Below are positions 5,019 to 31,678 of a stretch of 64,000 bases of DNA, one piece after another. Position 1 is the first letter of the stretch; each line of letters begins with the position of its first letter. Source of the stretch: Gammaproteobacteria bacterium BRH_c0 (GTDB lineage: Bacteria > Pseudomonadota > Gammaproteobacteria > Pseudomonadales > Porticoccaceae). The stretch covers positions 1 to 64,000 of the forward strand of contig LADM01000121.1 of NCBI GenBank assembly GCA_000961645.1, read 5' to 3'. The notes below the pieces were generated by a model that was given only the letters and a program-made list of their open reading frames with translations, did no database searches and was not told the origin of the DNA. The position numbers were made by a program, and so were the translations under genes.

Positions 5019-5031
5019 ATCATCCTCCTGA

Positions 5032-5976: not shown

Positions 5977-5979
5977 AAG

Positions 5980-11261: not shown

Positions 11262-11281
11262 TATTCAAGCAGGAGGCCATC

Positions 11282-11899: not shown

Positions 11900-12421
11900 T
11901 TGTCCATTGGCCTTTGGCTATGCTGGCAAGGGGATCTTTGCATCAGACAATTCGAGCGTTTAGCGTAATGCAAACCGTTCCTATGGCTTAGCTACCAGCA
12001 CTACCTCCCTTGATATGCAATCTGCATAGCCCCGGTCAACCCTCGACCCCCTTCCTTTTAATGCCATTTGCATAGGCCCCGGCAGTTCCCTTGGAAACAC
12101 CCTTTACCGTTGATGTCATTGGGCATTCAGGGCATTGGAATTCCAGGGGGCCGCAGGTGCATCGCGGGGCCGCCCCATCACCATCGCCATGCCCAGCCCC
12201 CGGTTTGCCCAGAGGTGGCCACTCTGGCGGCCTCCGGTACCCACCTGGGGCTGGGGCGGGGCCTCCCTCCGGCGCTCCCCGATTCCCCCGGAATCGCCCG
12301 GCAAAACCCACCGACAACCCGGCGCACTCGTCGCCTCGTCGCTTCCGGCGTCAAAAGCGTCAAGTCGTCGCTTGCGTCAGGTGCGCCAACACTTTTCTTT
12401 CACCCACTCATCGGAGTCTTT
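11900..12421. other. 522-bp gap without a supported gene, with repeated TGCATAG-type motifs
   Basis: The first half holds several ATGCAAA/TTTGCAT words: GCATAGCCCCGG at 12024-12035 is echoed by GCATAGGCCCCGG at 12070-12082, and related copies lie at about 11936, 11967 and 12014. From 12100 to 12400 the sequence is very GC-rich. The recombinase frame stays open through it, but the translation is low-complexity Pro/Arg/Gly/His and lacks a ribosome site, so I treat it as non-coding. Confidence 0.5.
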
Positions 12422-13132: not shown

Positions 13133-13445
13133 TGGTGCAATTAAATTGAACCCGTTAGTTTAACCCCCTGGGGTGCCCTATTCTCTGTCTATTAAGAGGC
13201 CTATTAAATAGACCCTACAAGGGTTCCATTAAAGGGGTAACCCTCGGGAGGTACTTACTGATGGTATCCCATTGAGATTACCCTGGAATGGTAACTCTTT
13301 AGCGAGTGACTCCTCCCGGAACACTGACTGTGTATACCCGCTCCCGGCCCTCTGGGATGCACGTCCAAATCGCCCCTTCTCTACCAGTAGTAATTCCCGA
13401 TAAACACCATCCCCGATTAACCATTTATCAATTCATGGAGACTCT
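13133..13445. other. non-coding stretch with nested palindrome (structured RNA or recombination site candidate)
   Basis: No gene seen. CGGGAGG (13245-13251) pairs with CCTCCCG (13312-13318). Inside lie a small hairpin ATGG-TATC-CCAT (13261-13272) and an inner pair GAGATTACC / GGTAACTC (about 13274-13297). Together they could fold a 74-base branched RNA or mark binding sites for the serine recombinase encoded just upstream. Direct CTATTAA repeats occur at about 13188 and 13201. Confidence 0.4.
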
Positions 13446-13625
13446 ATGCTGAAGTCCATGCTGTCCGCTGCTACCTATTTTTCCTTCATCTACAAGCCCT
13501 ATCGACTGTTGTCGTTACCGCTGGCCCTGGCGTTGTGGCATGTCAGTCCGCTGGCATTGCTGCTCACCGTGGCCGCCATCCTTTCCACCATCGCTTTTAT
13601 TCTCATCCACGTTGGAGACTTTTGA
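13446..13625 (+). CDS. small two-helix membrane protein
   Basis: A 59-residue open frame starting MLKSMLSAATYFSFIYKPYR, then two hydrophobic stretches (LLSLPLALALWHV and LALLLTVAAILSTIAFILI). ATGGAGAC provides a GGAG ribosome site before the ATG. Its stop overlaps a likely TTG start of the next small gene, which supports both being translated. The function is unknown; it would sit in the inner membrane as a short hairpin. Confidence 0.5.
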   Translation: MLKSMLSAATYFSFIYKPYRLLSLPLALALWHVSPLALLLTVAAILSTIAFILIHVGDF

Positions 13626-13798
13626 CCACGCAAGACTACGAAGATTATCTCATCGATGCCTACCACACAGTGCTGCCCTGGGACCTGCCAGAATCGGAGT
13701 TCGCCGACGCAGTGAACGAGCAAGCCCGCCTGATGGCCGGAGAACCCTGGGAATTATATCCAGAGCTGCCCTGCCCTGAGGCTCCACTGCAATTCTGA
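13622..13798 (+). CDS. small acidic hypothetical protein
   Basis: A frame of 58 codons reading TTQDYEDYLIDAYHTVLPWD after a TTG start that overlaps the previous stop (TTTTGA), with GGAG seven bases before it. The product is very acidic and aromatic. An in-frame ATG exists upstream at 13535 but would run inside the membrane gene. No family was recognised. Coupling to the membrane protein suggests they act together, which is inference. Confidence 0.5.
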   Translation: MTTQDYEDYLIDAYHTVLPWDLPESEFADAVNEQARLMAGEPWELYPELPCPEAPLQF

Positions 13799-13866
13799 TA
13801 CATTCCCTGCAACACCCCTCCCTTCTGTTACACAAACAATCAACCCCTCGTCAAAAAGGAATACCC

Positions 13867-14103
13867 ATGATTATCCGCACCCAATTGGCGGAGGTCGGGT
13901 TGCGCCTGGAATCCGCAGTTGCAGGGTTGCCAGGTGAGCCAACCGATGCCCAGGACCTGTTTGACCGCTACGAAATGACAGCCATCCAGATACTCGATAG
14001 CGAGCACCAGGACTTTATCCCCGGAATCCTTGAAGAGTATCTGATGACCCTGCTGTACCTGAAGCAACTCGAACTGGGGTTACTGCCAGATTTCCAGGAG
14101 TAA
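13867..14103 (+). CDS. small hypothetical protein
   Basis: A 78-residue acidic, helical protein beginning MIIRTQLAEVGLRLESAVAG, with AAGGA before the ATG. It has no signal, membrane segment or cysteine pattern. It ends 22 bases before an intrinsic terminator and so closes the transcript that probably starts at the RadC-like gene or later. No family was recognised. Confidence 0.55.
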   Translation: MIIRTQLAEVGLRLESAVAGLPGEPTDAQDLFDRYEMTAIQILDSEHQDFIPGILEEYLMTLLYLKQLELGLLPDFQE

Positions 14104-14124
14104 TCCTTCAACACTACCCCCTAT

Positions 14125-14150
14125 GGCCACCCTAACCGGTGGCCTTTTTT
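14125..14150 (+). terminator. intrinsic terminator
   Basis: Stem GGCCACC (14125-14131), six-base loop, stem GGTGGCC (14138-14144) and six Ts. It separates the small-gene transcript from the antirestriction gene. Confidence 0.85.
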
Positions 14151-14181
14151 ATGCCTTTACCCACACCTCGGAGATATCCCT

Positions 14182-14601
14182 ATGATTGATCGACCACAAC
14201 CCATCGAATTCACTCTCGTAGCCGAAGATAAGCGCCTGGCTGTTGCAGCCAAGTTGTTTGCTAATTATTTTGTGACCTTTGAAAGTACTGTGTACGCTTT
14301 TGCCGACCGGCTGAGCAAGGACTACAACGGCGCGTACTGGCAGTTCTACACCCTCAGCAATGGCGGTTTTTCCATGGCCCCGTCCTGTGATCACACGTTC
14401 TATGTCAGAGCTGAGAACGGCTTTCAGGGCGAACTGATGCCCAACGCTTTTGGCATCTGCTGCTGTATGTATGCGTTCAGCCATCTGTCCTTCTCAGAGA
14501 ACCGAGAGTTGAGTGAGCGGTGTACCGAGCACTTTCACCGTCTGCGGAAGGCCTGCCTGGACCACCCCGACGGCGGAAAGATCCTGGCCGCCTGCGACTA
14601 G
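14182..14601 (+). CDS. ardB: ArdB/KlcA-type antirestriction protein
   Basis: A 139-residue protein of the ArdB/KlcA family, which lets incoming DNA escape type I restriction without mimicking DNA charge. The hallmark stretch YWQFYTLSNGGFSMAP lies near residues 53-68. It is followed by the family's alanine/glycine helix (MPNAFGICCCMYAFSHLSFS) and a C-terminal HFHRLRKACLDHPDGGKIL. Length is normal. CGGAGATATCCCT precedes the ATG. Such genes are carried by conjugative plasmids and islands, in line with the element being mobile between strains. It sits alone after a terminator and before a long repeat-bearing non-coding region. Confidence 0.85.
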   Translation: MIDRPQPIEFTLVAEDKRLAVAAKLFANYFVTFESTVYAFADRLSKDYNGAYWQFYTLSNGGFSMAPSCDHTFYVRAENGFQGELMPNAFGICCCMYAFSHLSFSENRELSERCTEHFHRLRKACLDHPDGGKILAACD

Positions 14602-15215
14602 CGCACGATTGAAGCACTGCCAAAACCGCCGAAACTGCTCGATCTGGGTTTTGGCGGATTTGGCGATATGCGCCTTTCAGAAATTTCCCGCCGCACTCTG
14701 CAAAAATATCCCATCAACCAACCGCCGAAACTGCCGAAACCTCCTACCCCAGGGGTTTTGGCGGTTTTGGCGGTTTTGGCGATACCCCGCCCTTCGAAAA
14801 TCCCGCAGATTTCACCTCCCACCGGCCCGACTCATGGCCCATTTCAAGCTATCCGACCCTCCAAATACCCCTCTCACACATCTATTTTTGACTTTATTCA
14901 TGAAACATATTTATAGATTTCTAACTCTTTAATAACTTTTGTGAATATGTTGCTTCCTAGCGAAAGGCACATAAAACAGACAAAATTTTTTCAACCTTGT
15001 GAAAGCCACTTTGACTGAGAAAATATTTTTTCCTACCAAAGCAATATAAAACACAGACTTTAGAATCTACCAACTTAAAAACCGGTTTTATACTTTTATA
15101 CAAGCGTTTCTCAACTTTTTGCCGCATTTACTTTTGGAAGTTTCCTGATATTCTCTACCGAGCTGACGACTAAAAATCGCGGCTAAATTCTTTTAAATCG
15201 AATAGGAGAATCACC
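14602..15215. repeat. iteron-like TTTTGGCGG clusters followed by AT-rich region (origin candidate)
   Basis: Two palindromic clusters built from a nine-base unit TTTTGGCGG and its complement: CCAAAACCGCCGAAAC facing GGTTTTGGCGGATTTGGCG (14619-14668), and ACCGCCGAAACTGCCGAAAC facing three tandem GGTTTTGGC units (14721-14787). They are followed by about 330 strongly AT-rich bases with repeated ATAAAACA-type words (14966-15060). Repeats, then AT-rich DNA, then primase and helicase genes downstream is the common arrangement of a replication origin. No gene was seen here. Confidence 0.5.
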
Positions 15216-15821
15216 ATGATTCCAAAAATTGATACCGGCTTCGATGATGATGAAGCCACCCCTAATAGCTCATGTGCCCATAGGGACCTGAGCGATTTCA
15301 CTGACAAGGTCAACTTTGACCTTATGACGGATGAAGATGGGGTAACCATTCGTCGAAGTCAGTCCGGTGAAGCCTTTTGCCGGACCGGCAATGAGACCAC
15401 TCTCAACTGCTTGTTACGACGTCATCACGATGAGTACAGAAACTTCCAAGGTGAAGACTTCTGTCCCGTCATTGGCGAACTGCAGGAACGGGTTAAGAAA
15501 CATTTGCGACCCGTTCGGTTCGTTGGTGGTCTTAATGAGGCTGGTGAGTATTTCATCTATCCTCAGAAGTTAAACACCAAGCGAAACTCGAACTCTTGGA
15601 ACTCTTCGCTGGCAGTTGCATTGTCGCAGGACCCTGGTGTGTTCATAAGACTGACATCGAATACCGAGCAGCAGCGCTACGATTTTTCCGTCGTCGATAG
15701 AACCTGTGAAATACCTCTCGACATTGAAGACTTCCAGTCTCAGCTGCTGAAAGCTCTCGAAAATGACTTGATCGAATCGGCTGATCACTCTGTTTATAAA
15801 AAGTTTGTTGCCGCAGCCTGA
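15216..15821 (+). CDS. hypothetical protein upstream of the primase module
   Basis: A 201-residue acidic protein starting MIPKIDTGFDDDEATPNSSC with AGGAG before the ATG. It contains a run of charged residues, a short cysteine pair (C20 and C50 region) and no membrane segment. No family was recognised. It follows the repeat-rich region directly, so it could be a replication or copy-control protein that binds those repeats; this is a guess from position only. Confidence 0.6.
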   Translation: MIPKIDTGFDDDEATPNSSCAHRDLSDFTDKVNFDLMTDEDGVTIRRSQSGEAFCRTGNETTLNCLLRRHHDEYRNFQGEDFCPVIGELQERVKKHLRPVRFVGGLNEAGEYFIYPQKLNTKRNSNSWNSSLAVALSQDPGVFIRLTSNTEQQRYDFSVVDRTCEIPLDIEDFQSQLLKALENDLIESADHSVYKKFVAAA

Positions 15822-15992
15822 TTCTACTGTTCTCGTAGGGCCTCCGCCCGACACCTGCCCCAGGGATGCAAACCTGCATCCGACGCTGATTTAAGGGCAG
15901 CGCTCCTCATCTGGAGCGTTCGCCGACACCTCTATAGCGCACTGAGCGCATCACGAACCCCTACATTCACTGTGTTCGTTGGAGGTATTCCT

Positions 15993-16922
15993 ATGACGAC
16001 AACCTTTACTGACGATGGAACGGGCGCTTCCAGCCTGGAACATCTGGCTTACGAAATCTACAAGCTCCTGGATATCCAGGTGGACCCGATTCCCGATGGC
16101 CGGTTCCACCGCTATCCGGCACCGGGCAAACCGGACACCAATGATGCCTGCTGGGTCTGGATATCGGAGGACGGCAACTACGCCAAATTCGGGAATTTCA
16201 TTACCGGCGAGACCCATACCTGGAAAGGGGGGCTATTCCAGCCGCTGTCCCCGGAAGAAGCCGCTGCCCTGCAAGCGCAGGCTAAAAAGGCGGCCATTCA
16301 GGCTTACCGGGAGAAACGACAGCGGCAGGAGCAGGCGGCAATGAAAGCCCAGGCCATGATCAAGGGCGCCAAACGCGCCACCCACGCCAACCCTTACCTA
16401 TCCCAAAAATCCATCGAGCCCCACGGCACCTTTGCGGACGGCGCTGTTCTATTGGTGCCCATGGTCAACCTGGACAGTGAGATCCGAAATATCCAGCGTA
16501 TTTACCCCAACCGGGACAAGCGGTTCCTGAAAGGCGGCCAGGTCAACGGTTTGTTCACCACGGTAGATGCCCTCTTCAGTGCCGAGACGCAGTACATCTG
16601 CGAAGGCCTTGCCACGGCAGCCACTGTGAACGAGCTCACCTACAAGCCGGTGGCCGCTGCGATGACCGCAGCCAATCTCAAAGCGGTGTGCCTTGCCTTG
16701 GCCAGGGTCGCGCCCAAGGGTGTGGAGATTGTTGTGGTCGCCGACAACGACCATCGGACGGAAGGCAATCCCGGTGTAACCCGCGCCAAAGAGGCCGCCA
16801 GGGCTATCGGTGCCAGAGTCGTCATACCGCCTTTGCCTTGTGATCGGCGAGATTGTTACTGTACGGATTTCAATGACTATTGGAACTGCAGCAACCGGCT
16901 ATTGGTGGCGGACAATGGTTAA
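15993..16922 (+). CDS. TOPRIM-domain primase-like protein
   Basis: A 309-residue protein. The N-terminal third carries a CHC2-like or DUF-type primase accessory fold (FHRYPAPGKPDTNDACWVWI). A charged helix follows at about 90-125. The C-terminal half is a TOPRIM domain, with the glutamate motif YICEGLATAATV and the acidic VVVADND. This is the plan of plasmid, phage and island primases that make RNA primers. GGAGG precedes the chosen start. The last codons overlap the ATG of the next gene by eight bases (ATGGTTAA), so the two are made together and probably act as primase and helicase. Confidence 0.8.
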   Translation: MTTTFTDDGTGASSLEHLAYEIYKLLDIQVDPIPDGRFHRYPAPGKPDTNDACWVWISEDGNYAKFGNFITGETHTWKGGLFQPLSPEEAAALQAQAKKAAIQAYREKRQRQEQAAMKAQAMIKGAKRATHANPYLSQKSIEPHGTFADGAVLLVPMVNLDSEIRNIQRIYPNRDKRFLKGGQVNGLFTTVDALFSAETQYICEGLATAATVNELTYKPVAAAMTAANLKAVCLALARVAPKGVEIVVVADNDHRTEGNPGVTRAKEAARAIGARVVIPPLPCDRRDCYCTDFNDYWNCSNRLLVADNG

Positions 16923-18423
16923 TCCGATAGATATTTTGTTAAACCCCAAGCCAACAACGCCTGAGACTATACCGCTCGAAGCCTCCGCACCCAGCGTAGA
17001 AACCTTGTCGCGGCAGATGTTACCTGCCGCCATTGCCGACTTTGTGTATGACGTATCAGATCGCAGCCAGTGCCCACCGGAGTATGTTGCCGTTGCCGCC
17101 ATCATCGCACTGGGCAGTGTCGTTGGTGGAAAGTATGCCCTGCGCCCGAAACAGTCAGACCACTGGGAAATTTTGCCAAACCTGTGGGGCGCATTGATTG
17201 GTCCACCCTCTGCCATGAAATCTCCAGCCTTGAAAGAGGCATTAAAGCCCCTGGTCAAGCTGGAGAAATCGCTGACTAGTGCCGTGGCCACTGAACAACA
17301 GGATCGCAAGCTGTTATCCCACTTAAAGGCTATCGAGTACAAGAAAAAGCAAAAGGAGGCAGAGGCCCTGTACGAACAAGGCCAGCATGAGGATGCCCTG
17401 GATCTTCTCAAAAATCATCAACTAGAAGAGCATGATATTTCACCACCTCGCCTTATCGTCAACGACACCACCGTCGAAAAGCTGGGTGAATTGCTTAACG
17501 AAAATCCCAATGGCCTGCTGCTCGCCCGCGATGAACTGCACGGCTTTCTGGCAAGACTGGCTCGGGAGGAAAACCAGTCTGAGCGGGCATTTTACCTGGA
17601 ATGCTTTGATGGTAATGGCCGCTTTAGCTATGACCGTATAGGTCGTGGAACGATTGTCATTGAGCACTGCATCCTGAGTGTGGTGGGCGGCATCCAACCC
17701 AGTAAGATTGCTAACTTGTGCCACTTGGCCCTGTCCGGCAAAGCCGATGATGGCCTGATTCAGCGGATGCAACTGTCTGTCTGGCCCGACAAACAACCGC
17801 AAAAATCGTGGCTGGATCGTTCTCCTGACTTAGGGGCGCTGGAGCGATATGAACAGGTGATCCACAGGCTACACGGGCGAGAACGTCGACCTGAAGGGCC
17901 GATAATTCTGCGCTTTGCCCCGGATGCCCAGGTCTTGTTTATGGAGTGGTGGGAGTCGCTGCAAGGGGATATCGACAACGATGAGTTTCACCCCGTCGTC
18001 CAGTCTCACTTTGGCAAATACCCGAAAACCATCGGGGCACTGGCACTGATTTTCCAGCTCTGTACCGGCATGGAAACCCAGGTGGAAATGGCTGCGATGG
18101 AGATGGCGTTGGCGTGGGCCAGCTTTCTGCGCTCCCATGCCTTGCGGCTTTACAGTGCCTTTGACAGTGCCAACCTAGAGAACGCCAAGCGCTTGCTAAA
18201 GCGGCACGACAAACTGCCGGTGCTGTTCACCGTGCGGGATGTTCGCCGTAAGGGTTGGGCCGGACTGAAAGACAACGCGGATATCAATGCAGCGCTGGAC
18301 TGCCTTGTAGATCATCATTATCTGCTCGAAATACCCCAACCTCCCGGCACCTATGGCGGGCGACCCACGATTCAATATCGATGGTCCCCGGCTCTGAGTG
18401 CCAACGGGAAAACCTCGCCGTGA
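16915..18423 (+). CDS. DUF3987-family replication protein (helicase-like)
   Basis: A 502-residue protein of the DUF3987 type found beside TOPRIM primases in prophages and islands. A conserved N-terminal block (QCPPEYVAVAAIIALGSVVG...) precedes LWGALIGPPSAMKSPALKEAL, where a P-loop-like GPPSAMKS is visible near residues 102-109. LLLARDELHGFL, an acidic Walker B-like motif, follows near 205. This suggests an ATP-dependent helicase or primase partner. It overlaps the upstream primase gene, and its C-terminal region ends in a winged-helix-like segment (LDCLVDHHYLLEIP). Together the pair could replicate the excised element. Confidence 0.75.
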   Translation: MVNPIDILLNPKPTTPETIPLEASAPSVETLSRQMLPAAIADFVYDVSDRSQCPPEYVAVAAIIALGSVVGGKYALRPKQSDHWEILPNLWGALIGPPSAMKSPALKEALKPLVKLEKSLTSAVATEQQDRKLLSHLKAIEYKKKQKEAEALYEQGQHEDALDLLKNHQLEEHDISPPRLIVNDTTVEKLGELLNENPNGLLLARDELHGFLARLAREENQSERAFYLECFDGNGRFSYDRIGRGTIVIEHCILSVVGGIQPSKIANLCHLALSGKADDGLIQRMQLSVWPDKQPQKSWLDRSPDLGALERYEQVIHRLHGRERRPEGPIILRFAPDAQVLFMEWWESLQGDIDNDEFHPVVQSHFGKYPKTIGALALIFQLCTGMETQVEMAAMEMALAWASFLRSHALRLYSAFDSANLENAKRLLKRHDKLPVLFTVRDVRRKGWAGLKDNADINAALDCLVDHHYLLEIPQPPGTYGGRPTIQYRWSPALSANGKTSP

Positions 18424-18429
18424 CATCAC

Positions 18430-18469
18430 CGTCGAAACCGCCGATACCGGGTTTTGGCGGTTTTGGCGC
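18430..18469. repeat. TTTTGGCGG repeat cluster between DUF3987 gene and integrase
   Basis: GTCGAAACCGCCGATA faces GGTTTTGGCGGTTTTGGCG in the same inverted arrangement as the clusters near 14.6 kb. It begins six bases after the DUF3987 stop and lies about 100 bases before the integrase start. It may be a protein-binding site controlling the integrase, a hairpin ending the replication transcript, or part of a dispersed iteron set. Confidence 0.55.
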
Positions 18470-18567
18470 TACTCACTGTGCCACTTTCCAATCCATTTCG
18501 GGCGAACCGGCAAGTGCTGGGCGACCCCAACCTGCATTTATTCACTTCAATCCTTCAAGGAGGCTAT

Positions 18568-19749
18568 ATGCCTGTACAACTACTGCAACAACCTGAAATA
18601 GATGCTGGAATGTCTCCAGAATCTGGCAAGAAACGCTCGGAGTACTGTGACAAGGAAACCCCCGGCCTGTACCTGGAAGCCAGGGCTGGCAGTGCCTCCA
18701 ACACTTACTATCTCCGCTACAAAAACGCTGATAAGAAAACCTGCCATCACTACCTGGGGCGCACCAGCGATATCACCCTTACCCAGGCAAGAGAGATGGC
18801 GACGGATCTGAAGGCTAAGATTGCCGGTGGATATAATCCCAAAGCGGATACCCCAGTGGCAGAGGGTGCTATCACTTACAGCAGGTACATGAAAGAGTAT
18901 TACCTGGCCCATGCGAAAAATCACAAGCGCAGCTGGGAGGCCGACAAGCGCATGTTCGAGCAACGCCTGGACAAGGAGTTCGGGTGCCTACCTCTGGATC
19001 AGCTCACACGGACAATGATCAGCCGGTTTCATACTGGTCTGAAGGAATCCGGGCTGGCGGCGGCTACAGCCAATCGCTTCCTGGCCTTGATCCGCCATTC
19101 ACTGAATCTGGCCATGGACTGGGAGATGCTGGAAAAGAACCCTGCATCCAAGGTAAAGATGTTCCGCGAGCCCGTGGAGGACAAGGTGTTGACCCCGGAG
19201 GAGCTCAAACGGCTGCTGGCTTTCCTGGTCAAAAAGAAAACCAATGTGGCGTATCTGGCTCGACTGTTACTCTCGACCGGTGCCAGGGTGCAGGAGGCTT
19301 TGAAAGCGCAGTGGTCAGACATTAACTTGGATCGACACTTATGGGTCATTCCGCAGACAAACAGCAAGTCGAAGAAGACCCGATCCGTGCCCCTCAACGA
19401 TGCTGCCATCACTATCTTGAAAGAGTTGCCGACCTTTGGCAAAGGCGGCTATCTCTTTGTAGGCGCTGATGGGAAGACCAGGCTAGCGTGGCCAGGGCAA
19501 GTGTGGTGCCGCTATCGCCGGTCAGAGGAAGTGAATTTGCCGAATTTGCGACTTCACGACCTTCGCCATGCCTACGCCAGCACCTTGGCCGCCAGCGGGG
19601 TCAGTCTCTATCAGATCCAACATCTTTTGGGCCACGCCTCTCCGGTGATGACCCAGCGCTATGCCCATCTGGTGACTGACAACCTGCTCGAAGCCAGCAA
19701 CCATGCTGCGAATGCTATTAATCAGGCCATGGCTGCCAATGGTGGTTAA
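18568..19749 (+). CDS. int: tyrosine integrase (DUF4102-type arm domain)
   Basis: A 393-residue phage/island integrase. The N-terminal arm-binding segment (ETPGLYLEARAG, YYLRYKNADKKT, LTQAREMATDLKAKIAGG) is the form typical of integrases that use tRNA 3' ends. A core-binding domain follows. The catalytic residues are all visible: R in STGARVQEAL, HDLRHAYAS, GHASPVMTQRYAH with the tyrosine nucleophile. AAGGAGG lies seven bases before the ATG. It is the best candidate for the enzyme that inserted the island at tRNA-Asn, but unusually it lies 12 kb or more from either attachment repeat. Confidence 0.93.
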   Translation: MPVQLLQQPEIDAGMSPESGKKRSEYCDKETPGLYLEARAGSASNTYYLRYKNADKKTCHHYLGRTSDITLTQAREMATDLKAKIAGGYNPKADTPVAEGAITYSRYMKEYYLAHAKNHKRSWEADKRMFEQRLDKEFGCLPLDQLTRTMISRFHTGLKESGLAAATANRFLALIRHSLNLAMDWEMLEKNPASKVKMFREPVEDKVLTPEELKRLLAFLVKKKTNVAYLARLLLSTGARVQEALKAQWSDINLDRHLWVIPQTNSKSKKTRSVPLNDAAITILKELPTFGKGGYLFVGADGKTRLAWPGQVWCRYRRSEEVNLPNLRLHDLRHAYASTLAASGVSLYQIQHLLGHASPVMTQRYAHLVTDNLLEASNHAANAINQAMAANGG

Positions 19750-22491: not shown

Positions 22492-22794
22492 TGCCCCTAT
22501 ATCAGAGGAAGGAATTCTGCTGCTGGCTTGCCAGTCAACCTGATCAGGTCCACCAGTAGGTTATTTGATCTTAGACAGACACATTGAGCGCCTGGGTCAA
22601 TCGCAGCGACATTGACGCATTACTCCGTACTATATTTGGCCTTGCATCATTGGGAGAACAGTGCCTCTAGGCTAACCAGGCTCAAAAAAATGTTATCATT
22701 TACTTTAGTTGCTGATACTTTGTCAAAAACGACACGACCTGTCGGCTAACGGCGCAACAATCATCTCAACATAGCGCCGCATCAAGGAGTATCC
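22492..22794. promoter_or_regulatory. promoter region of the WYL regulator
   Basis: About 300 non-coding bases after umuC. A perfect palindrome ACCTGATCAGGT lies at 22538-22549. AT-rich DNA near 22683-22735 (TTATCATTTACTTTAG, then GATACTTTGTC) could hold the regulator's promoter. WYL regulators commonly repress their own promoter, so operator sites are expected here, but none was identified with confidence. Confidence 0.4.
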
Positions 22795-23706
22795 GTGGCA
22801 AAAGGACATCACGACACACTGGTTTACCGGCTCTCTCAGATGCTGGTGAAGCTCAATCAAGGTGAATACCTAGACCCCAAAACACTAGCTGACGAATTTG
22901 GCGTAAACCTCAGAACCGTCCAGCGAGATTTGAATGAACGGTTTGCCTACTTACCCCTTCTGAAGACCCAAGGTCGATATCACATCGACCCAAGCTTCCT
23001 TGGCAAGTTAAACCTGAAAGACATTCAACATTTTGCCAGTCTCGCTGGAATCAAGGGCTTGTTCCCTTCCTTGTCGGATTCATTTCTACGAGATATTTTC
23101 GACCAGCACATCGAATCAGCCCTATTAGTGAAAGGTCACCACTACGAAGACCTACGCGGCAAAGAGAAGGCTTTCAAAGCATTAGAGCAAGCGATAGTTA
23201 ATCGAAAGAGAATTAGCTTCAGCTACACCAAAATGGATGTAAGTGTAGCCAAGTCCTACCAGAATGTTGCGCCATACCGGCTGGTGAATCACAAAGGAAT
23301 TTGGTATCTAGCAGCAACTGATGAGGGAAAACTCAAAACATTCTCGTTCACGAAGCTGGACAAACTGTCTACCTCCGAAAGCACCTTCATTCCAGATGAA
23401 AGAATACAGGCTACTGTGCAAACCAGTGATGGGATATGGATCAGTGAAGAACCCTGGAATGTAATACTGAAGATTGCGCCGGAAGTTGCTGCGTATTTCA
23501 AACGACGAAAGCTGATAGCTAACCAGGTGATTGAAAAGGATCTCAAGGATGGTGGATTAATCCTCTCGGCAAAGATAGGTCACGAAAACCAAATCCTGCC
23601 AATTGTGAGGTATTGGTTGCCGCACATAAGGATCATCAATCCGGTCAGATTACAAAATGAGTTGGAGAGTCAACTTCATCTTTACCTTAATAATCCAGGA
23701 ACATGA
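22795..23706 (+). CDS. WYL-domain transcriptional regulator
   Basis: A 303-residue regulator with a GTG start behind AAGGAGT. The N-terminus is a winged helix-turn-helix (LADEFGVNLRTVQRDLNERF near 34-53). A WYL domain follows at about 125-200 (RISFSYTKMD, then APYRLVNHKGIWYLAATD), and a WCX-type C-terminal domain at about 210-300. This is the plan of BrxR/CapW-like regulators that often head phage-defence operons and respond to nucleotides or nucleic acid. It faces the membrane/TerB/lipoprotein operon. Base composition becomes AT-rich from here, which suggests a different origin from the SOS cassette. Confidence 0.9.
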   Translation: MAKGHHDTLVYRLSQMLVKLNQGEYLDPKTLADEFGVNLRTVQRDLNERFAYLPLLKTQGRYHIDPSFLGKLNLKDIQHFASLAGIKGLFPSLSDSFLRDIFDQHIESALLVKGHHYEDLRGKEKAFKALEQAIVNRKRISFSYTKMDVSVAKSYQNVAPYRLVNHKGIWYLAATDEGKLKTFSFTKLDKLSTSESTFIPDERIQATVQTSDGIWISEEPWNVILKIAPEVAAYFKRRKLIANQVIEKDLKDGGLILSAKIGHENQILPIVRYWLPHIRIINPVRLQNELESQLHLYLNNPGT

Positions 23707-23971
23707 CTGTCGTAGAGTCAATCTGTTATTGACTTACAACGACTTTGGATTCAACTAAATTCGGGCATTAAGTATTTCAGCATGAAAATGAAAAATGGAA
23801 TCATAAAGAGAGCAACGCAAAGACCCCTAAATAGTTTTTTGCCAAATGGCCCTTTGGATTTTCTTGACAGGAAAAATACCAAAATGACTAATAGCAGAAT
23901 CAAAAAAAGCATTGCTACTCCTAAACCATTGAGTGTGGAGTAAGGAGTGTTCCATATCCAGACGACAGGGT

Positions 23972-24472
23972 ATGTCGTTTAATTTCACCAAAATGGGTAA
24001 CGTTATGAAAGTAGAATTTGTCGATGCGAAAGGAAATACCATTAATATGGAAGCTGAACATCTAACTGCGGCGGATGTGGACATCCTTAACTCAGAAATA
24101 TATACACGAAAACACATCCGCCAGATGATCGATAACATGGATATATCTGCCGATGCGAAAAGCATACTTAACAGTATTGCACAGACTACTATCGCTGTCG
24201 GCAAAAATATTATTCAAATAGGCAAGAAGATTCTGGAGATAGTGCTTGAAATTCTCCGGAAATTCCCAAATGCCAGCTACGGGCTGATTCTTGGATTACT
24301 GCTGGGAATGTTAGTCTCAGGCATCCCTATACTGGGTCTTGCTTTTGGACCATTTATCACGCCATTAGCCGCTGCTTTTGGCCTGGCTAGCGGATGGTCA
24401 AATGACCTGAGAGATAATGCACTCACCACCAAGATTTTCGAAGCAAACGAAAGGTTTTCGGCTTTACGCTAA
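23972..24472 (+). CDS. small membrane protein of unknown function, first in WYL-linked operon
   Basis: About 166 residues from MSFNFTKMGN; starts at 23933 or 24005 (MKVEFVDAKG) are also possible because none has a strong ribosome site. The first half is soluble and contains VDAKGNTINMEAEHLTAAD. Then comes a helical stretch (IIQIGKKILEIVLEILRKF) and one long hydrophobic, glycine-rich region of one or two helices (LILGLLLGMLVSGIPILGLAFG and PFITPLAAAFGLASG). No family was recognised. A 53-codon frame of doubtful reality lies just upstream at 23782-23943. The next gene follows after 13 bases. Confidence 0.65.
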   Translation: MSFNFTKMGNVMKVEFVDAKGNTINMEAEHLTAADVDILNSEIYTRKHIRQMIDNMDISADAKSILNSIAQTTIAVGKNIIQIGKKILEIVLEILRKFPNASYGLILGLLLGMLVSGIPILGLAFGPFITPLAAAFGLASGWSNDLRDNALTTKIFEANERFSALR

Positions 24473-24485
24473 AAGAGAAAATTGA

Positions 24486-25424
24486 ATGGAACATGATATT
24501 GGGAAAAATATTCAAGTAGTTCTACATCCGACTCTATTCAAAGCAAAGCTGGGTATTGGAGAGGAAGCTTATGCCTTTCTGCGAACCACCAAAAATCTCT
24601 CTAAACTCTCCGATGTTATTGGTTTGGGAGCTGCAGGTTCCGCAGCCGCTTCCTCCTCTGTAGTCGCCAATACGTTTTTCGCCACCCATAGCATCTGGTC
24701 TGCACTAGGGTTAGGTGCGACCGCATCGACGCCAATTGGATGGGTAATCGCTGCTGGAGTCGCAAGCGGTGTTGGCTACTATGGGATATCAAAAGTATTT
24801 CAAAAACAGAAAGACGGCATGGTAACTGTCGTTCCGGAGTTCATAAACACCCCTTTGGACTTGCTTGCAATCGGCATTTCCAACATGGTTGTCCCACTGG
24901 CACTGAAAATCGCCTTGGCTGACGGAACAATTAAGGAAGTAGAGAAATCGCATATTGTTGAGTATTTCACCGATGAATGGGGGTATGCACCAGACTTCAT
25001 TTACACCCAGATCGATGACTTACTCCCCAAGCTCAATACGCTGAACATAGACACCCTCACGCAGGAATTCGCCACCTACATCAAGGAAAATCCTGACTGC
25101 CACACGAAAAAAATGGCACAGGAGCTACACAGATTTCTCAAAGACATTGCGATTTGTGATGGCGAATTGCATGAGAATGAGAGAATAGCAATTGTCCACA
25201 TTGAGAATCTTATTGCCAATACCATCAAGTTCTCGTTCGGAGAAAAATTCTCACAGACTTCTGCTGAAGTGAAACAGGCAGCCAAGATTGCTGCCACGAA
25301 TACTCATACAGCTGCCAGCAAAACAGGCACCATCATCATATTTTCTGCCGCCTCTTTTGGTAGAAAGGCAAAATCGAGTCTACAAACTCTCCTCAAGAAA
25401 AATAAGGTAGATGGCGACAGATGA
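24486..25424 (+). CDS. membrane protein with TerB-like segments
   Basis: A 312-residue protein. After a short soluble lead, residues about 45-105 are small-residue-rich and hydrophobic (GLGAAGSAAASSSVVANTFF, then ALGLGATASTPIGWVIAAGV), like a membrane hairpin. Two acidic repeats follow, ALADGTIKEVEKSHI near 140 and AICDGELHENERIAI near 237, which look like the DG...E pattern of TerB-type helical domains. The C-terminus is basic. TerB-like domains occur in stress and phage-conflict membrane systems. The stop overlaps the next lipoprotein start by four bases, so the operon is tightly coupled. Assignment to TerB is by motif only. Confidence 0.6.
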   Translation: MEHDIGKNIQVVLHPTLFKAKLGIGEEAYAFLRTTKNLSKLSDVIGLGAAGSAAASSSVVANTFFATHSIWSALGLGATASTPIGWVIAAGVASGVGYYGISKVFQKQKDGMVTVVPEFINTPLDLLAIGISNMVVPLALKIALADGTIKEVEKSHIVEYFTDEWGYAPDFIYTQIDDLLPKLNTLNIDTLTQEFATYIKENPDCHTKKMAQELHRFLKDIAICDGELHENERIAIVHIENLIANTIKFSFGEKFSQTSAEVKQAAKIAATNTHTAASKTGTIIIFSAASFGRKAKSSLQTLLKKNKVDGDR

Positions 25425-25816
25425 AAAAACGAGTAATCTTGCTCATAGGATTCTTGGTGGTTGGTTGTGCAAGCAACCCAAATCGCATCGATGCTAAGCA
25501 GGTCCCAGCATCAAAATATCGAGAGTTTAGCTGTACAGACATCGGAATGGAAATCACCTATATACGAGAGAATTCTTTGGCTCTTTCTGAAAGTCTTCAA
25601 AAAACTCAGTCCAATGACACATTACAGATGGCTGCAGGGGCTTTACTGTTAAGTCCGGTATTGTTCGGATTATCCGACTATGGAGACACTCCTGAAACAG
25701 CCGAATTTTCACGATTGAAGGGTGAGCACCAAGCCCTACAAATGAGAGCCAAAGAAATCAACTGCCAACTAAGTGACAATCTTACTATTGATCAATATCT
25801 GGAGAAAAATAAATGA
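25421..25816 (+). CDS. lipoprotein of unknown function
   Basis: A 131-residue protein with a classic lipoprotein signal, MKKRVILLIGFLVVGC, cleaved before Cys16. The mature part has a cysteine in FSCTDI, a helix, a hydrophobic middle (LQMAAGALLLSPVLFGL) and a second helix ending with a cysteine (EINCQL). This layout recalls small lipoproteins encoded in phages and islands, but I cannot name a family. The ATG overlaps the TerB-like gene's stop and its own stop overlaps the next lipoprotein's start. Confidence 0.75.
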   Translation: MKKRVILLIGFLVVGCASNPNRIDAKQVPASKYREFSCTDIGMEITYIRENSLALSESLQKTQSNDTLQMAAGALLLSPVLFGLSDYGDTPETAEFSRLKGEHQALQMRAKEINCQLSDNLTIDQYLEKNK

Positions 25817-26163
25817 TTTCCTATATAAGAACCGGGATGCTTGTGTTGCCATTACTGCTATCAGCATGCGCAACCACTAGTGAAACGTCTACATCCAAGC
25901 TGGTGGATGAATACATAACAGAGAGCGAGATGCTCGATCGGAATACCTGTGCAAAGATCGGTGATGTCTATGCGAACTATAGCATCCTATTACACATGCC
26001 CTCTGCCAGGAGGAATGCAGGTCACGTTGCATTGAAGGAAGCAGCCTACGCTAAAGGTGCCAATGCAGTAATTTTGACAACTCAGGTCGCTGTTTATGGC
26101 CAGATCGAGGATCAAGTTAAGGGTATTGCCTACAATTGCAAACCAAAGCGCCCAACCCACTGA
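25813..26163 (+). CDS. lipoprotein, DUF4156-like
   Basis: A 116-residue protein with signal and lipobox LLLSACATTS, lipid anchor on Cys19. The mature part contains TCAKIGDVYANYS and the helix ALKEAAYAKGANAVILTTQV, which together resemble the DUF4156/YbjQ-like fold of small outer-membrane-associated lipoproteins, and ends with a cysteine (YNCK). It closes the WYL-linked operon and overlaps the preceding lipoprotein gene by four bases. Two consecutive lipoproteins beside two membrane proteins suggest an envelope-spanning assembly. Confidence 0.7.
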   Translation: MISYIRTGMLVLPLLLSACATTSETSTSKLVDEYITESEMLDRNTCAKIGDVYANYSILLHMPSARRNAGHVALKEAAYAKGANAVILTTQVAVYGQIEDQVKGIAYNCKPKRPTH

Positions 26164-26206
26164 TTCTTATTCATTGGGTCTGACGTTACCAATAAATTGT
26201 CGCTTC

Positions 26207-26971
26207 TTACAGTTCTGCAAGCAGTGGGTCATTAGGTGCTTTGGGCCTTGTTAAAAGTGCGTACAAATATTCAGCAATTGGATCTCTCGAATCTGCAAGA
26301 TCCGCAATAATATCGCTCAACTTGTTTTGATACCGAGCATCAGAAATCACATAAAGTTCACCCTTAAATAGTTTCAAAATTAATGTTTTTGCAACTGATA
26401 TACTCTTATTGAAATCAACACCAGAAAAGGTAGCTTTGCTCCAATCTCTACTATTGAGCCATTCCTCGACCTGCTTCTGTTTGACAGGGGTTAACCTGGT
26501 AATCACTGACTCTACCGAATCCAAATGAGCGATATTTGTACCGTTTCGGCTTTCATCAATTTCCCTGATTAGTCGCTTCAATTCAGAGAAATAGGTATGC
26601 CGCACAAAGGCTTCAGCACCAGGTATTCGTATGAATTGGTTCCAATTAAATTTAGGCACCATTGCGCCCTTCAGTCCTCGGCCCATTCTGCCTTTATACT
26701 CAAACCATTCTTTATCCTTATACTCAGTCTTGGATTTGAAATCTTGCCACCTCTCCTTCGCGACTTGTTCGGTGATGTCATCCCAACGCTCGGCCAGATA
26801 CGCCGGGATAACACAACCACACTGTGAGCAAGTAATCGTCCTCTGTACACCGGCCCAAGGATCAGAGAAATCTGGAGCATCAGAAATTGATATGCATGAC
26901 TCAAGCAGGCAGCTGTCATCGGCACTGCCACATTCAGGACACAAAAATCTGTTCTTTTGTATTTCGTTCAT
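26207..26971 (-). CDS. zinc-ribbon protein of unknown function
   Basis: A 254-residue protein. Two CxxC pairs near the N-terminus (LCPECGS at about 10-14 and TCSQCGCVIP at about 48-52) make a zinc ribbon; WDDITEQVAKERWQDF follows. The rest is helical and charged with no known motif. It overlaps the upstream ribbon-helix-helix gene by four bases (ATGA), so the pair is one operon, transcribed toward the WYL-linked operon. Function unknown; a nucleic-acid-associated role is inferred from the ribbon and its partner. Confidence 0.65.
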   Translation of the reverse strand: MNEIQKNRFLCPECGSADDSCLLESCISISDAPDFSDPWAGVQRTITCSQCGCVIPAYLAERWDDITEQVAKERWQDFKSKTEYKDKEWFEYKGRMGRGLKGAMVPKFNWNQFIRIPGAEAFVRHTYFSELKRLIREIDESRNGTNIAHLDSVESVITRLTPVKQKQVEEWLNSRDWSKATFSGVDFNKSISVAKTLILKLFKGELYVISDARYQNKLSDIIADLADSRDPIAEYLYALLTRPKAPNDPLLAEL

Positions 26972-27618
26972 TTTTTTTCTCCAAAGTTATGGTTGCCAAT
27001 CAACGCCATCATTTCTTTGTTTAACTTTTGCTTTTTCTTAAACTGTGCTGTGCGAGGATTGTCCTCGTCACTGAGATAACAGGCCGCAAAATTTAACTGA
27101 GCAGGAAGTTCAACCCGATACAGACCTTCGCCCCAGTTGGCCTGAACATAGTGTCTGAGGTAGAAGAAGGGGTCTTGATAGACAGCCCGCATTGCGGACA
27201 TCGGCGCAGTGGGCATTCCCTCTAGTTGAAGATGTAAATACCTAACCTCAACCTCTTCGGGTATTTCCAGAATATTGCACAGAACGTCGGGGCATCGCAG
27301 AAAAAGCAGTATCCTCGATATCAGCGCATTCCTTGCAATGTTATGCTCTTCAATGACCGCGTTCAGTCGTTCGATTGTTGAAGGCTCAATCGCGATGTTG
27401 ACCGACTTAGATCCGACTCTCTTGAGTTCTCCGCCGATAACCCGTTTTGCGGTATTATTATTCCTGAGTCCCTTCAAATCAGCGGATACGTGTTCAAGCT
27501 CGTGAGAAATGACATGATCCAAAAATGGTGCGATGGATAGGCACAGCGACTTCGCCTGCTCGCTGAAACGCTCCCAAAGCACTGCCGGAATCATGAAACT
27601 TTGTCGTTGAGGACTCAT
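26968..27618 (-). CDS. protein with ribbon-helix-helix-like segments
   Basis: A 216-residue protein. SKSVNIAIEPSTIERLNAVI then NIARNALISRILLFLR (about 71-110) has the strand-helix-helix pattern of an RHH DNA-binding unit. The N-terminus (RQSFMIPAVLWERFSEQAKS, then APFLDHVISHEL) shows a similar pattern, so there may be two tandem units. The C-terminal half is of unknown fold. A palindrome AGAGGATTTCCTCT lies 43 bases upstream of its start, a plausible operator for autoregulation. It is coupled to the zinc-ribbon gene behind it. Confidence 0.65.
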   Translation of the reverse strand: MSPQRQSFMIPAVLWERFSEQAKSLCLSIAPFLDHVISHELEHVSADLKGLRNNNTAKRVIGGELKRVGSKSVNIAIEPSTIERLNAVIEEHNIARNALISRILLFLRCPDVLCNILEIPEEVEVRYLHLQLEGMPTAPMSAMRAVYQDPFFYLRHYVQANWGEGLYRVELPAQLNFAACYLSDEDNPRTAQFKKKQKLNKEMMALIGNHNFGEKK

Positions 27619-27984
27619 GTTTGCCGCTCCTTTGTGTCTGTTGATCTGAATAATAGATACAGAGGATTTCCTCTACAACAACCAAAGATAGAGGATGACG
27701 GCAGGATTTTGTTTGAAATTCAATAACCGTCTGTTTTTATGGAAGTATTTACAGAGTTGACAGCGAAAAATATTTTGACATATGTGAATATGATTAACAG
27801 ACCCACTTATTGCATATCAGTGGGTTCGGTTAAAGTTCGACACATCAGGCAGAAAAACACGTTGCCTTTCTGCTACTTAGACACATAGAGGAAACACCGG
27901 TTGAGCCATAGGGTCGGTAAATGGGTCGGTTTTTACAAGCAGCACTTGCTCGGGCCATCAATCATTATCGCTCGGCATGCGGAA
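27619..27984. other. intergenic stretch with operator region, no gene seen
   Basis: Contains the AGAGGA operator candidate (27661-27696) and an AT-rich tract to 27790 that could be the promoter of the leftward pair. The remaining bases to 27984 show no coding or structured feature that I can support. Confidence 0.4.
27661..27696. promoter_or_regulatory. palindromic operator candidate upstream of the RHH gene
   Basis: Perfect palindrome AGAGGATTTCCTCT (27661-27674) with an extra half site AGAGGAT at 27690-27696. Spacing and position 5' of a ribbon-helix-helix gene fit an autoregulatory site. Confidence 0.5.
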
Positions 27985-28221
27985 TCACGTAGGGTTAATC
28001 TCGTCCGTAGTAACGTCCTCCTCCAGATACAACTTCAAGCAATGATTCAATTTTTGAAACATCTCGTCGACAGCAAGTCCTTGACAGGAAAGTGCCACCA
28101 CCATATTCTGCTCGTCATTGGCGATCACATAGTAGCTTCCATTGTATTGCGGTGAAAACGAGACATGTCCCGCCCCCTCGATCCACCCTGCAATATACGG
28201 GTACTCTGTTTTAATGCCCAT
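27985..28221 (-). CDS. small hypothetical protein coupled to the primase-helicase
   Basis: A 78-residue acidic protein starting MGIKTEYPYIAGWIEGAGHV. Its ATG lies 11 bases inside the end of the upstream primase-helicase gene, suggesting translational coupling. It has an aromatic, beta-rich first half (VSFSPQYNGSYYVIANDEQN) and an acidic helical end. No family was recognised. A start 15 bases further upstream is possible. Confidence 0.55.
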   Translation of the reverse strand: MGIKTEYPYIAGWIEGAGHVSFSPQYNGSYYVIANDEQNMVVALSCQGLAVDEMFQKLNHCLKLYLEEDVTTDEINPT

Positions 28222-30622
28222 TTCCCGAATACTCAATAATGTTCATATTCTGATCAGCAGTTCCATACTGAATGTCGTAGCCCATAGCCTTGTAGCCCTT
28301 CTCACGCTTGTTGAACATACGATTCAGCATCGGAACAGAACTATCCACATAATCATAAATGGTGACCATGTCCTTACCCTCAGCCTCCCGATGAATCCGG
28401 CCTGCGTACTGAGCCAGGGTCCCTTTCCATGCAATGGGCAGTGCCAGAAACAAGGTATCAAGCCGGGGTAAATCAAAGCCTTCGCCAATATATTTTCCGG
28501 TTGCAACGATCACCTGGGCGTCATCAAGCAGCTCCTCAGCCGCCGCCTGTTCTTTCGCCCGCATCGCACCCCGAAGAACAACGGTGACAATCTCTTGGTC
28601 CCGAAGAGATTGCGAGAGTATCTCCGCATGTTCTCTTCGTTCGGTCAACACAAGGCAATGCGCACCGCCGTGTACTTTCTCTAAAACATCGTCGATGATC
28701 TGCCGGTTTCGCGATGCGTTCTCCACCAGGGACCGGTATACCGCAGAAATATGTAGCTTTTCCTCGACTTGATTTAATTTTTCGAGAACGGGATCATAAC
28801 GACGCCTAACAATGACCTGCTGCTCAAAGTTGCTCCCAACATCGCTTTTGACCTTTTGTCGTACGGGACCCGCAACCATAAACATGATTTTTTGATGACC
28901 GTCTTGTCGGTTGGGCGTCGCAGTAAGGCCCATGACATAACGGGCTTTGACTTCATTGAGGACCATTTCGTATCGGGGCGCAGAAATATGATGGCATTCG
29001 TCGATGATCACCTGCCCGTATTGATCAATCAGATCCGAAACCAGATTGTTCTTTTTATCAATCAAGCTCTGATAGGTGGCGATATCAATCTCCCCGCTCG
29101 GTCTTTTCTTCCCACCGCCAACAACTCCCACTTCTACGCCACTGACAAACGAGCCTAGCCTCTCCTTCCATTGGTCAAGAAGCTGCCGACTATGAGTCAA
29201 AATCAGGGTGCTGACCTTGCGGTGACTAATGACGCCAATAGCGGCAACGGTTTTACCAAAGGCTGTAGGGGCGTGAAGTATCCCTGTGTCGTACTGCCCC
29301 ATCCTCTCAACGGCTTCCTGTTGATCAGACCGCAATTCGCCGATAAAACTAAGTTTATCGAGTAGCGTGCCCCGGATGCGTTTATCGTCGAACTCAACGT
29401 CAATACCTTGTTCATCCAGCAGCGAAACCACGTCATCCAGGCAGCCCCGAGGTAACGATAGGTACCCTCCCCCAATTCGGGCACAGGTAATATAGCGAGG
29501 TGTCCCATGGGTAGAAAAGCGCATTGCCTGCTTTTTGAAGAATACAGGGTTCGAGAAGCTGGCGACCCGCCTTAATCGAGCCGTGAGTTTAGCCGGAATA
29601 TCCGACAACTTGATATATATGTGGTTGGAGAGTGCTATAGCAATTTTGCGGGGGCAATCTGGAATTTTGTCGTGATCGATACGGAGACTTTGTTCCCACG
29701 GTGCTGTTGTTTCAGCGGAGAGTGCTTCAGTGAAAGGTGACTCAGCCAACGGGACGACGAGATTCTGAGGTGCCAGGTCATCAGCAAGTCTGTCCACAGA
29801 ATCTGTCGTAATTACATTTAATCCGGCCAGGAATTCCCACTGATCATCGATCGGACGCAGATGGTCGTCAACGAAGATGGTCTTACCCTGTTGTCGTTTC
29901 TCTTGCTGCAAAGGCAAAGCTATCAGATTACCGAATCCACCCTCGGGCATCAGGTCCTGATTAGGGAACAACCTATCATATGATTCAAACGATAATCCGG
30001 CATGAATTTCCATCGCTTTATCGAGAAGGCCAAAACCCAATCTTCGTGCAAGTCCCGCCTGGATGGCCTCTGAGAAAAATATCCACAAATGCGCCCCGTT
30101 ACCCGAACGGGAAACTTCGATTGCATAGGGAACATCGAACTGCCGACAAACATGTGCAAGGGCAAGCACTGTATCCTTCCATTCGTCCTTGTCGAAATCC
30201 ACAGCCAGAAAATGACAAGTGCTATCAGGCAGCAAAGGATACAGGCCGACAACATGTTTGCCAGCCAAGTGGTCGTATATGACCTGTTCGTCCAGGGTTT
30301 TATAGTGCCGGTTAGGACAGTCGCCACATTTGACCTTTGGCTTATTACAGACTCCGGTCACCCATTCGTTATGGCAGGCAACGGCATAACCAGATCGACC
30401 CTGGGCGTTTTCCCAGCGAGTGGCAAAGACATCTGTCCGCCCCCGGAAGAGACGTCGAAAAATTTCTACCTTTTGCGCTAAAGAAAATCGAGAAGATGGG
30501 ATTAGCTGATTGGTTGCGAGTAATTGTTTTTTCCGGTCCAACAGCCGAGTTTTTTCGCTTTCGATCTCGGCTAACCTGACATCGATTTCCCGCAGCTTTT
30601 CACTGGGACTCTTGGCAGACAA
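28211..30622 (-). CDS. archaeo-eukaryotic-type primase domain fused to SF2 helicase (TOTE-like)
   Basis: An 803-residue protein. A short coiled coil (about 8-36) comes first. Then a primase-polymerase domain (about 50-290) has a cysteine cluster (C92, C99, C102), the catalytic pair in LAVDFDKDEW (141-146) and the nucleotide-binding SRSGNGAHLWIFF (171-183). The C-terminal half is an SF2 helicase: HAPTAFGKTVAA, VIIDECHHI, VMGLTATPNRQDG and a helicase C domain ending in an arginine-finger AQYAGRIHREAEGK. This domain pair matches the TOTE-type conflict-system proteins described from comparative genomics. It probably acts on nucleic acid during defence or repair; no nuclease domain is visible in the chain. 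Confidence 0.85.
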   Translation of the reverse strand: MSAKSPSEKLREIDVRLAEIESEKTRLLDRKKQLLATNQLIPSSRFSLAQKVEIFRRLFRGRTDVFATRWENAQGRSGYAVACHNEWVTGVCNKPKVKCGDCPNRHYKTLDEQVIYDHLAGKHVVGLYPLLPDSTCHFLAVDFDKDEWKDTVLALAHVCRQFDVPYAIEVSRSGNGAHLWIFFSEAIQAGLARRLGFGLLDKAMEIHAGLSFESYDRLFPNQDLMPEGGFGNLIALPLQQEKRQQGKTIFVDDHLRPIDDQWEFLAGLNVITTDSVDRLADDLAPQNLVVPLAESPFTEALSAETTAPWEQSLRIDHDKIPDCPRKIAIALSNHIYIKLSDIPAKLTARLRRVASFSNPVFFKKQAMRFSTHGTPRYITCARIGGGYLSLPRGCLDDVVSLLDEQGIDVEFDDKRIRGTLLDKLSFIGELRSDQQEAVERMGQYDTGILHAPTAFGKTVAAIGVISHRKVSTLILTHSRQLLDQWKERLGSFVSGVEVGVVGGGKKRPSGEIDIATYQSLIDKKNNLVSDLIDQYGQVIIDECHHISAPRYEMVLNEVKARYVMGLTATPNRQDGHQKIMFMVAGPVRQKVKSDVGSNFEQQVIVRRRYDPVLEKLNQVEEKLHISAVYRSLVENASRNRQIIDDVLEKVHGGAHCLVLTERREHAEILSQSLRDQEIVTVVLRGAMRAKEQAAAEELLDDAQVIVATGKYIGEGFDLPRLDTLFLALPIAWKGTLAQYAGRIHREAEGKDMVTIYDYVDSSVPMLNRMFNKREKGYKAMGYDIQYGTADQNMNIIEYSGNGH

Positions 30623-30787: not shown

Positions 30788-31156
30788 TCATGCGGATGCT
30801 TCCTTTGGTTTGATCAACGATTCAGCAGGAATCCCCAATTCCTGATTCAACTTCCAGATCATCTTCACTGTCAAGTTACGCTTGTGATTCAGGATCTCAT
30901 AGACGCGATTGCTCTTGCCTATCATAGGCTCAAGGTCCTTAACGGTGAGTCCTTTCTGCTCCATTTCAAATTTGATCGCCTCCACTGGGTCTGGCAGGTC
31001 CATTGGATAGTGTTTTTCCTCATAGGCTTCCACCAATGTTACCAATACATCCAGCCGTTCACCTTCTGGCGTGTCGAGTTCAGCCATCATCAGGCCCTCA
31101 ATCTCGGCCAAAGTCTGTTTGTAATCGGCATCAGTTTTAATCGGTTTAATGTCCAT
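30788..31156 (-). CDS. higA: HigA-type antitoxin
   Basis: A 122-residue antitoxin of the COG5499 kind. The N-terminal part (TDADYKQTLAEIEGLMMAEL) is the toxin-neutralising region. The C-terminal part is an XRE helix-turn-helix (GLTVKDLEPMIGKSNRVYEIL, then LTVKMIWKLNQELGIPAE). The gene follows the toxin by 17 bases, the reversed toxin-first order typical of higBA. It would bind its own promoter and HigB. It sits just inside the right attachment repeat, where an addiction module would help keep the island. Confidence 0.92.
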   Translation of the reverse strand: MDIKPIKTDADYKQTLAEIEGLMMAELDTPEGERLDVLVTLVEAYEEKHYPMDLPDPVEAIKFEMEQKGLTVKDLEPMIGKSNRVYEILNHKRNLTVKMIWKLNQELGIPAESLIKPKEASA

Positions 31157-31173
31157 TGTCTTTACCTCGGACG

Positions 31174-31476
31174 TTAAATGGTTTGCACATCTATCTGGTC
31201 ATACTGTGTGTGAGTACCAATGAACCGGACATACACTACCCGGTGTATATAATTTATCCACACTACTAGCCGGTACTTATTCCCGGCAATGTTGAATACC
31301 ACCCGACCATCTTTGAGAATGCTCGCATTCCGCAAGTCGGCCTTAACGTCTGCTGGCGTTGCCCAGTCGGCCTTCAACACATGGCGGTGCCATGCCAACA
31401 GTGGCTGCTTCGCTTCTGCGTATGCGGGGTTGCTTTCCCAAAAGGCCTTCAGCGTTGATCGGGCGATAACTCTCAT
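31174..31476 (-). CDS. higB: HigB-type mRNA interferase toxin
   Basis: A 100-residue RelE-superfamily toxin. The start MRVIARSTLKAFWE at 31476 matches the family; a longer frame upstream has no support. Signatures include AEAKQPLLAWHRHV, VVFNIAGNKYRLVVWI and the terminal VYVRFIGTHTQYDQID. It would cut mRNA on the ribosome until neutralised by HigA. Its promoter must lie in the 200 bases up to the right attachment repeat. Confidence 0.92.
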   Translation of the reverse strand: MRVIARSTLKAFWESNPAYAEAKQPLLAWHRHVLKADWATPADVKADLRNASILKDGRVVFNIAGNKYRLVVWINYIHRVVYVRFIGTHTQYDQIDVQTI

Positions 31477-31678
31477 GGGTCTGAATAATAGTCCCATTTT
31501 GGGACACTTGCAATCAATTTTTGCTCCGTTCGGAGAATGGTCGGTAGTCCGACCTCTCCACCGAACCTGGGCCAATTTCGGTTTTTGGTTCGGAATCCTC
31601 CCGCCATCTTCCGAACCGACCCGAAAAGCTGTTACTTTTCATCGGCTTTCTCAAGAAAATCAGCGGCTTATCCGGAAC

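Follow-up and report, generated by a model that had tools for sequence, protein, structure and literature searches.

Five consecutive genes in a stretch of the genome of Gammaproteobacteria bacterium BRH_c0 (contig LADM01000121.1, positions 1 to 64,000; here, the window) encode a WYL-domain regulator, a small membrane protein (MEM), a TerB-like protein, and two lipoproteins (LP4 and LP5). The original prediction, made from this DNA alone, took them to be one WYL-headed system, possibly for phage defense, with no described counterpart. Here, we asked whether the five genes belong together, which of them form a conserved unit, and what such a unit might do.

A five-gene cassette headed by a WYL regulator

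Based on ORF calls, all five genes lie on the plus strand at about the positions predicted (Table 1). The one correction concerns MEM, the ORF of which extends to a GTG at 23933 (23933-24472), but its relatives align to the ATG at 24005; we therefore regard the ATG as the start and the GTG as an over-extension. The last three genes overlap as described previously, with an ATGA overlap of 4 bases at both the TerB/LP4 and the LP4/LP5 junction, and a gap of ~300 bases separates the WYL gene from MEM. Pfam matches above the cut-off were obtained for gene 1 (WYL and WCX) and gene 3 (TerB) and none for genes 2 and 4, while NCBIfam, PADLOC, and PHROGs gave additional matches within the cassette for the WYL gene only.

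Table 1. Positions of cassette, island, and neighboring features in the window
Feature	Position	Strand	Basis
WYL regulator (wHTH, WYL, and WCX), BrxR/CapW-like	22795-23706	+	Pfam, family profile
MEM, predicted inner-membrane protein, 155 aa	24005-24472	+	Family of 53 aligned sequences
TerB protein, N-terminal Gly/Ala-rich segment and C-terminal TerB domain	24486-25424	+	PF05099, fold
LP4 lipoprotein, 131 aa, lipobox VVGC, Ala at +2	25421-25816	+	ORF, lipobox
LP5 lipoprotein, 116 aa, lipobox LSAC, Ala at +2	25813-26163	+	ORF, weak DUF4156 similarity
Island backbone (RadC-like, unknown gene, resolvase, ArdB-like antirestriction, primase genes, tyrosine integrase)	10347-19749	+	ORFs
Unknown island gene	11282-11899	+	ORF
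ArdB-like antirestriction	14182-14601	+	PHROG anti-restriction protein
Tyrosine integrase	18454-19749	+	ORF, name read by eye
TOTE-conflict-type archaeo-eukaryotic primase fused to helicase	28211-30622	-	Pfam AEP-TOTE, 331 bits

The product of the first gene matches Pfam WYL (44.4 bits) and WCX (38.3 bits) past both cut-offs, with HTH_11 and HTH_DeoR just under theirs. Its family profile matches the BrxR structure 7QFZ over the wHTH and WYL domains (E 3.3e-5), and relatives of the gene head dynamin-like (L142 and L145), patatin-like (L141), FRG (L154), and other cargo genes; the dynamin and patatin labels are N-terminal motifs read by eye, and FRG is a Pfam match. These results support the proposed BrxR/CapW-like identity of the regulator. 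The published criterion for a BrxR operator is an inverted repeat with long arms and a gap of <8, and many homologues lack one (PMC9122601). The only inverted repeat found upstream of the WYL gene (22593-22619) has 9-nt arms, 89% identity, and a 9-nt gap, and is not kept at L024, the only other locus with an orthologous WYL gene beside MEM and TerB. We found no conserved operator upstream of the WYL gene or MEM, and no operator words shared between these two upstream regions or with L024. On the IMG/VR phage contig L154 (5983-12416), a WYL gene 51% identical to that in the window lies behind phage tail-like genes. It is followed by a gene for an FRG-domain protein and by one for a small secreted repeat protein that resembles the product of the gene between the WYL gene and MEM at L024.

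The TerB assignment was borne out by PF05099 (33.7 bits versus a cut-off of 24.4) and by a match to the TerB fold of 2h5n (Z 9.9). In an alignment of 84 relatives, L22, I24, G25, P83, P117, I120, P123, D125, W165, G166, and D204 are invariant, and the acidic residues D146, D204, D225, and E232 are conserved in 81 to 100% of 85 sequences. The protein thus belongs to the TerB domain family, with a helical domain and conserved acidic residues. AlphaFold modeled the TerB domain well and the N-terminal segment poorly. The cassette had also been described as encoding two membrane proteins; this fits MEM (hydropathy peak 2.4) and sits less well with the TerB protein, the Gly/Ala-rich segment of which (residues ~40-105) is weakly hydrophobic.

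MEM comprises a short N-terminal beta/helical part, a long helix, and a hydrophobic hairpin, and A49, K52, G73, and G111 are invariant among the 53 aligned sequences. Its AlphaFold model was of low confidence (pLDDT 61) and was kept out of fold searching.

Both lipoproteins have a lipobox, as anticipated. By the +2 rule, lipoproteins with Ala at +2 are sorted to the outer membrane, which is the sorting predicted for LP4 and LP5. LP5 matches DUF4156 at 19.1 bits, under the cut-off of 28.9, and comparison with solved structures gave no match to RcsF or any other meaningful match.

MEM-TerB is the evolutionary unit of the cassette

The claim that the five genes form one system did not hold, because an orthologous WYL gene accompanies MEM-TerB only once more, relatives of LP4 lie elsewhere, and no relative of LP5 was found. 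At L024, the WYL protein is 59% identical to that in the window, a gene for a different small secreted protein lies between the WYL gene and MEM, and the surrounding island is of the same type, its integrase, antirestriction, and 11282-type genes being related to those in the window. The two TerB proteins (46% identical) are sisters in the TerB tree (SH-aLRT 95). Relatives of LP4 occur in 13 of 294 genomes of the order in unrelated chromosomal places, and none of LP5 was found in these genomes or in the plasmid collection; at the other loci examined, neither lipoprotein gene is ever beside the WYL gene, MEM, or TerB. On plasmids, we found no DNA-level relatives.

What does recur is the pair formed by MEM and TerB. 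A profile search of the genome collection detected TerB at 110 loci, 80 of which were retrieved; a scan of genome contigs with a single protein gave no match. After removal of duplicates, MEM is directly upstream of TerB in 52 of 84 TerB relatives. These pairs come from Alpha-, Gamma-, and some other Pseudomonadota, and in many of them the two genes overlap by exactly 4 bases; larger apparent overlaps stem from over-long ORF starts. In the reverse direction, a MEM profile was searched against a separate set of 398 genomes from the phylum and had five strong matches. One of them is the window, and each of the five has TerB directly downstream; a further, distant MEM variant lies beside an integrase-like gene. 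The pairing in both directions identifies MEM-TerB as the evolutionary unit, a closely coupled two-gene core. Pairwise identities of MEM correlate with those of TerB (r 0.63, a value not corrected for shared phylogeny). Neighbor clustering revealed no third conserved partner recurring beyond integrases and island genes. In phage records, a TerB protein search gave no match; one IMG/VR contig, L102, has MEM-TerB.

Pfam, NCBIfam, PADLOC, and PHROGs contain no family for MEM, and PADLOC has a model for neither MEM nor TerB. The literature on TerB with WYL, GTPase, or defense did not yield a description of the pair. Thus, the expectation of no described match stands for MEM-TerB in all libraries searched, and the locus is a WYL-headed island cassette built around an undescribed conserved gene pair.

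Paired MEM-TerB is mobile and linked to defense genes and GTPases

The cassette lies downstream of an island backbone at 10 to 20 kb, in which the RadC, resolvase, primase, and integrase names were read by eye from ORFs; the window also has an SRAP and UmuDC-like set. Among the 294 genomes of the order, the island gene at 11282-11899 occurs in 14 and TerB in 11 (window included), and 4 have both versus 0.5 expected (hypergeometric P 9e-4), in each case on one contig and ~2 to 14 kb apart. Because 10 of the 14 genomes with the island gene lack TerB, we consider MEM-TerB variable island cargo.

Among 98 proteins neighboring paired loci, with the 25 commonest families considered, were 6 phage integrases, 3 further WYL proteins, 2 GmrSD proteins, 2 DUF2779 proteins, and an McrBC component. 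In two sphingomonads (L053 and L071), MEM-TerB is downstream of an unrelated WYL gene, and L071 also has DUF2779, type III restriction-like, and McrBC-like genes. In contrast, ~38% of the TerB relatives lack MEM and occupy stable chromosomal contexts; in Marinobacter, for example, synteny is conserved. For part of the family, this speaks for a housekeeping role. The 25 commonest neighbor families of the MEM-less loci are mostly housekeeping genes, with a few PADLOC matches there as well, so that the contrast between the two sets is qualitative. Hence, of the proposal that the cassette genes co-occur near defense loci, the part concerning all five genes is not supported, while MEM-TerB does recur beside restriction systems and integrases: the paired form is mobile and defense associated, and the MEM-less form chromosomal.

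In two Rhodobacteraceae (L083:1222-4663 and L091:7899-11382), TerB and an Era-like GTPase with a hydrophobic tail form one fusion protein, and a gene for a Dynamin_N-type (dynamin-like) GTPase follows that for the fusion. Because these TerB sequences form one starred clade in the TerB tree, the fusion was probably a single event. These loci link MEM-TerB with membrane-acting GTPases by a line of evidence separate from that of the WYL gene.

Relation to known systems

The cassette resembles the Ter system (TerZABCDEF and TelA) in its TerB domain, its membrane component, and a proposed anti-phage action at the membrane; it differs in that its TerB protein is paired with a dedicated MEM protein and itself contains a Gly/Ala-rich segment. 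None of TerC, TerD, TerF, and TelA is encoded among the five cassette genes and three adjoining genes. TerB has been proposed to sense a ligand for a Ter system that acts at the membrane and keeps phages out (PMC7824862), and one report implicates the ter operon in the inhibition of phages and in resistance to colicins (PMC8123226). This anti-phage and colicin role was proposed without a defined minimal unit, and MEM-TerB is a compact two-gene unit with >50 examples; its mobile and MEM-less forms and GTPase fusions make a role of TerB at the membrane testable with one small construct.

Like the BrxR and CapW repressors (PMC9122601 and PMC9122588), the regulator has a wHTH-WYL-WCX architecture, heads a mobile cassette, and has a family profile that matches the BrxR structure 7QFZ; unlike them, it is not followed by BREX or CBASS genes. 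No strong inverted repeat by the published criterion was seen upstream. CBASS combines a CD-NTase with a Cap effector; PADLOC detected only the WYL gene in the cassette, and no CD-NTase was found in the adjoining genes scanned. For PglX, PglZ, and BrxC of BREX, the eight genes at 22795-30622 gave no match, with generic helicase cross-matches to the TOTE protein only. The dynamin-like GTPase operons at L142 and L145 share a related upstream WYL gene with the cassette, which itself lacks a GTPase.

Proposed function and alternatives

We favor, with a probability of roughly 45%, the explanation that the cassette is mobile-island cargo encoding an inducible inner-membrane module for phage defense or envelope protection. 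It builds on the gene content and domains, the conservation and coupling of MEM-TerB, the island and defense context, and the GTPase-linked variants, and would extend these to regulation, membrane topology, and an anti-phage or envelope outcome. The cargo headed by WYL relatives and the phage-blocking role proposed for the Ter system speak for it as well. The BrxR/CapW-type repressor would silence the locus and release it upon binding an infection- or damage-related ligand. The MEM hairpin would insert in the inner membrane and anchor the TerB protein there. The TerB domain, as a helical bundle that may bind a ligand or metal through its conserved acidic residues, could then drive a membrane change, with blocked phage entry, protection of a damaged envelope, or cell arrest as the outcome. 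LP4 and LP5, which may act at the outer membrane, would be locally acquired additions to MEM-TerB. Counting against it are the occurrence of the WYL-MEM-TerB set in two loci only, the lack of a conserved operator, the MEM-less chromosomal TerB genes, the low confidence of the MEM model, and the lack of PADLOC models for MEM and TerB.

The weight could instead lie on the lipoproteins, as effectors of superinfection or plasmid exclusion that mask phage or conjugation receptors with support from MEM-TerB. Their genes are attached to the operon through overlaps of 4 bases, Ala occupies +2 in both, and mobile elements commonly have genes for lipoproteins that act in exclusion; however, they are the least conserved part of the cassette, LP5 having no relative found and those of LP4 being scattered chromosomal genes, which makes this reading improbable. 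Similarly improbable is a chance assembly, in which only adjacency on the island would connect the WYL gene with an otherwise independent MEM-TerB. The 300-base gap without a shared motif, the different small secreted protein gene in the gap at L024, and the fact that the WYL gene and MEM-TerB are mostly found apart fit such an assembly. Yet the sister TerB proteins of the window and L024 have both kept a WYL gene, arguing that the WYL-MEM-TerB order persisted through strong divergence.

The main rival, close behind the favored explanation, holds that MEM-TerB is a general module for envelope stress or membrane maintenance, comparable in role to phage-shock or Ter stress proteins, that islands happen to carry, with the WYL protein sensing DNA damage or stress and phages not being a target. 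The MEM-less TerB genes beside housekeeping genes and their synteny in Marinobacter argue for it. Maintenance of the membrane is also suggested by the variants with a GTPase fusion, and ter operons have been connected with phenotypes in tellurite and oxidative stress. Against it, the MEM-paired copies lie near integrases and restriction systems, and BrxR-type WYL genes co-localize with defense systems (PMC9122601). On balance, we regard it as rather unlikely. We are equally doubtful about the more specific possibility that MEM-TerB, with or without a WYL gene and including GTPase/dynamin forms, is an undescribed and widespread two-gene membrane immunity module of Pseudomonadota that blocks phages at the inner membrane.

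Other features of the window

Two minus-strand genes at 26207-27618 converge on the cassette; they encode proteins of 254 and 216 aa, overlap by 4 bases, and have no family match. A HigBA-like toxin-antitoxin pair, read by eye, is at 30788-31575 on the same strand. A CRISPR locus at 350-9908, also on the minus strand, has a long array of type I-F style repeats; by eye, it encodes a Cas6f-like protein, two backbone proteins (314 and 360 aa), a Cas2-3-like protein of 985 aa, and Cas1. That just two genes separate Cas3 from Cas6 points to the minimal I-F2 (I-Fv) variant.
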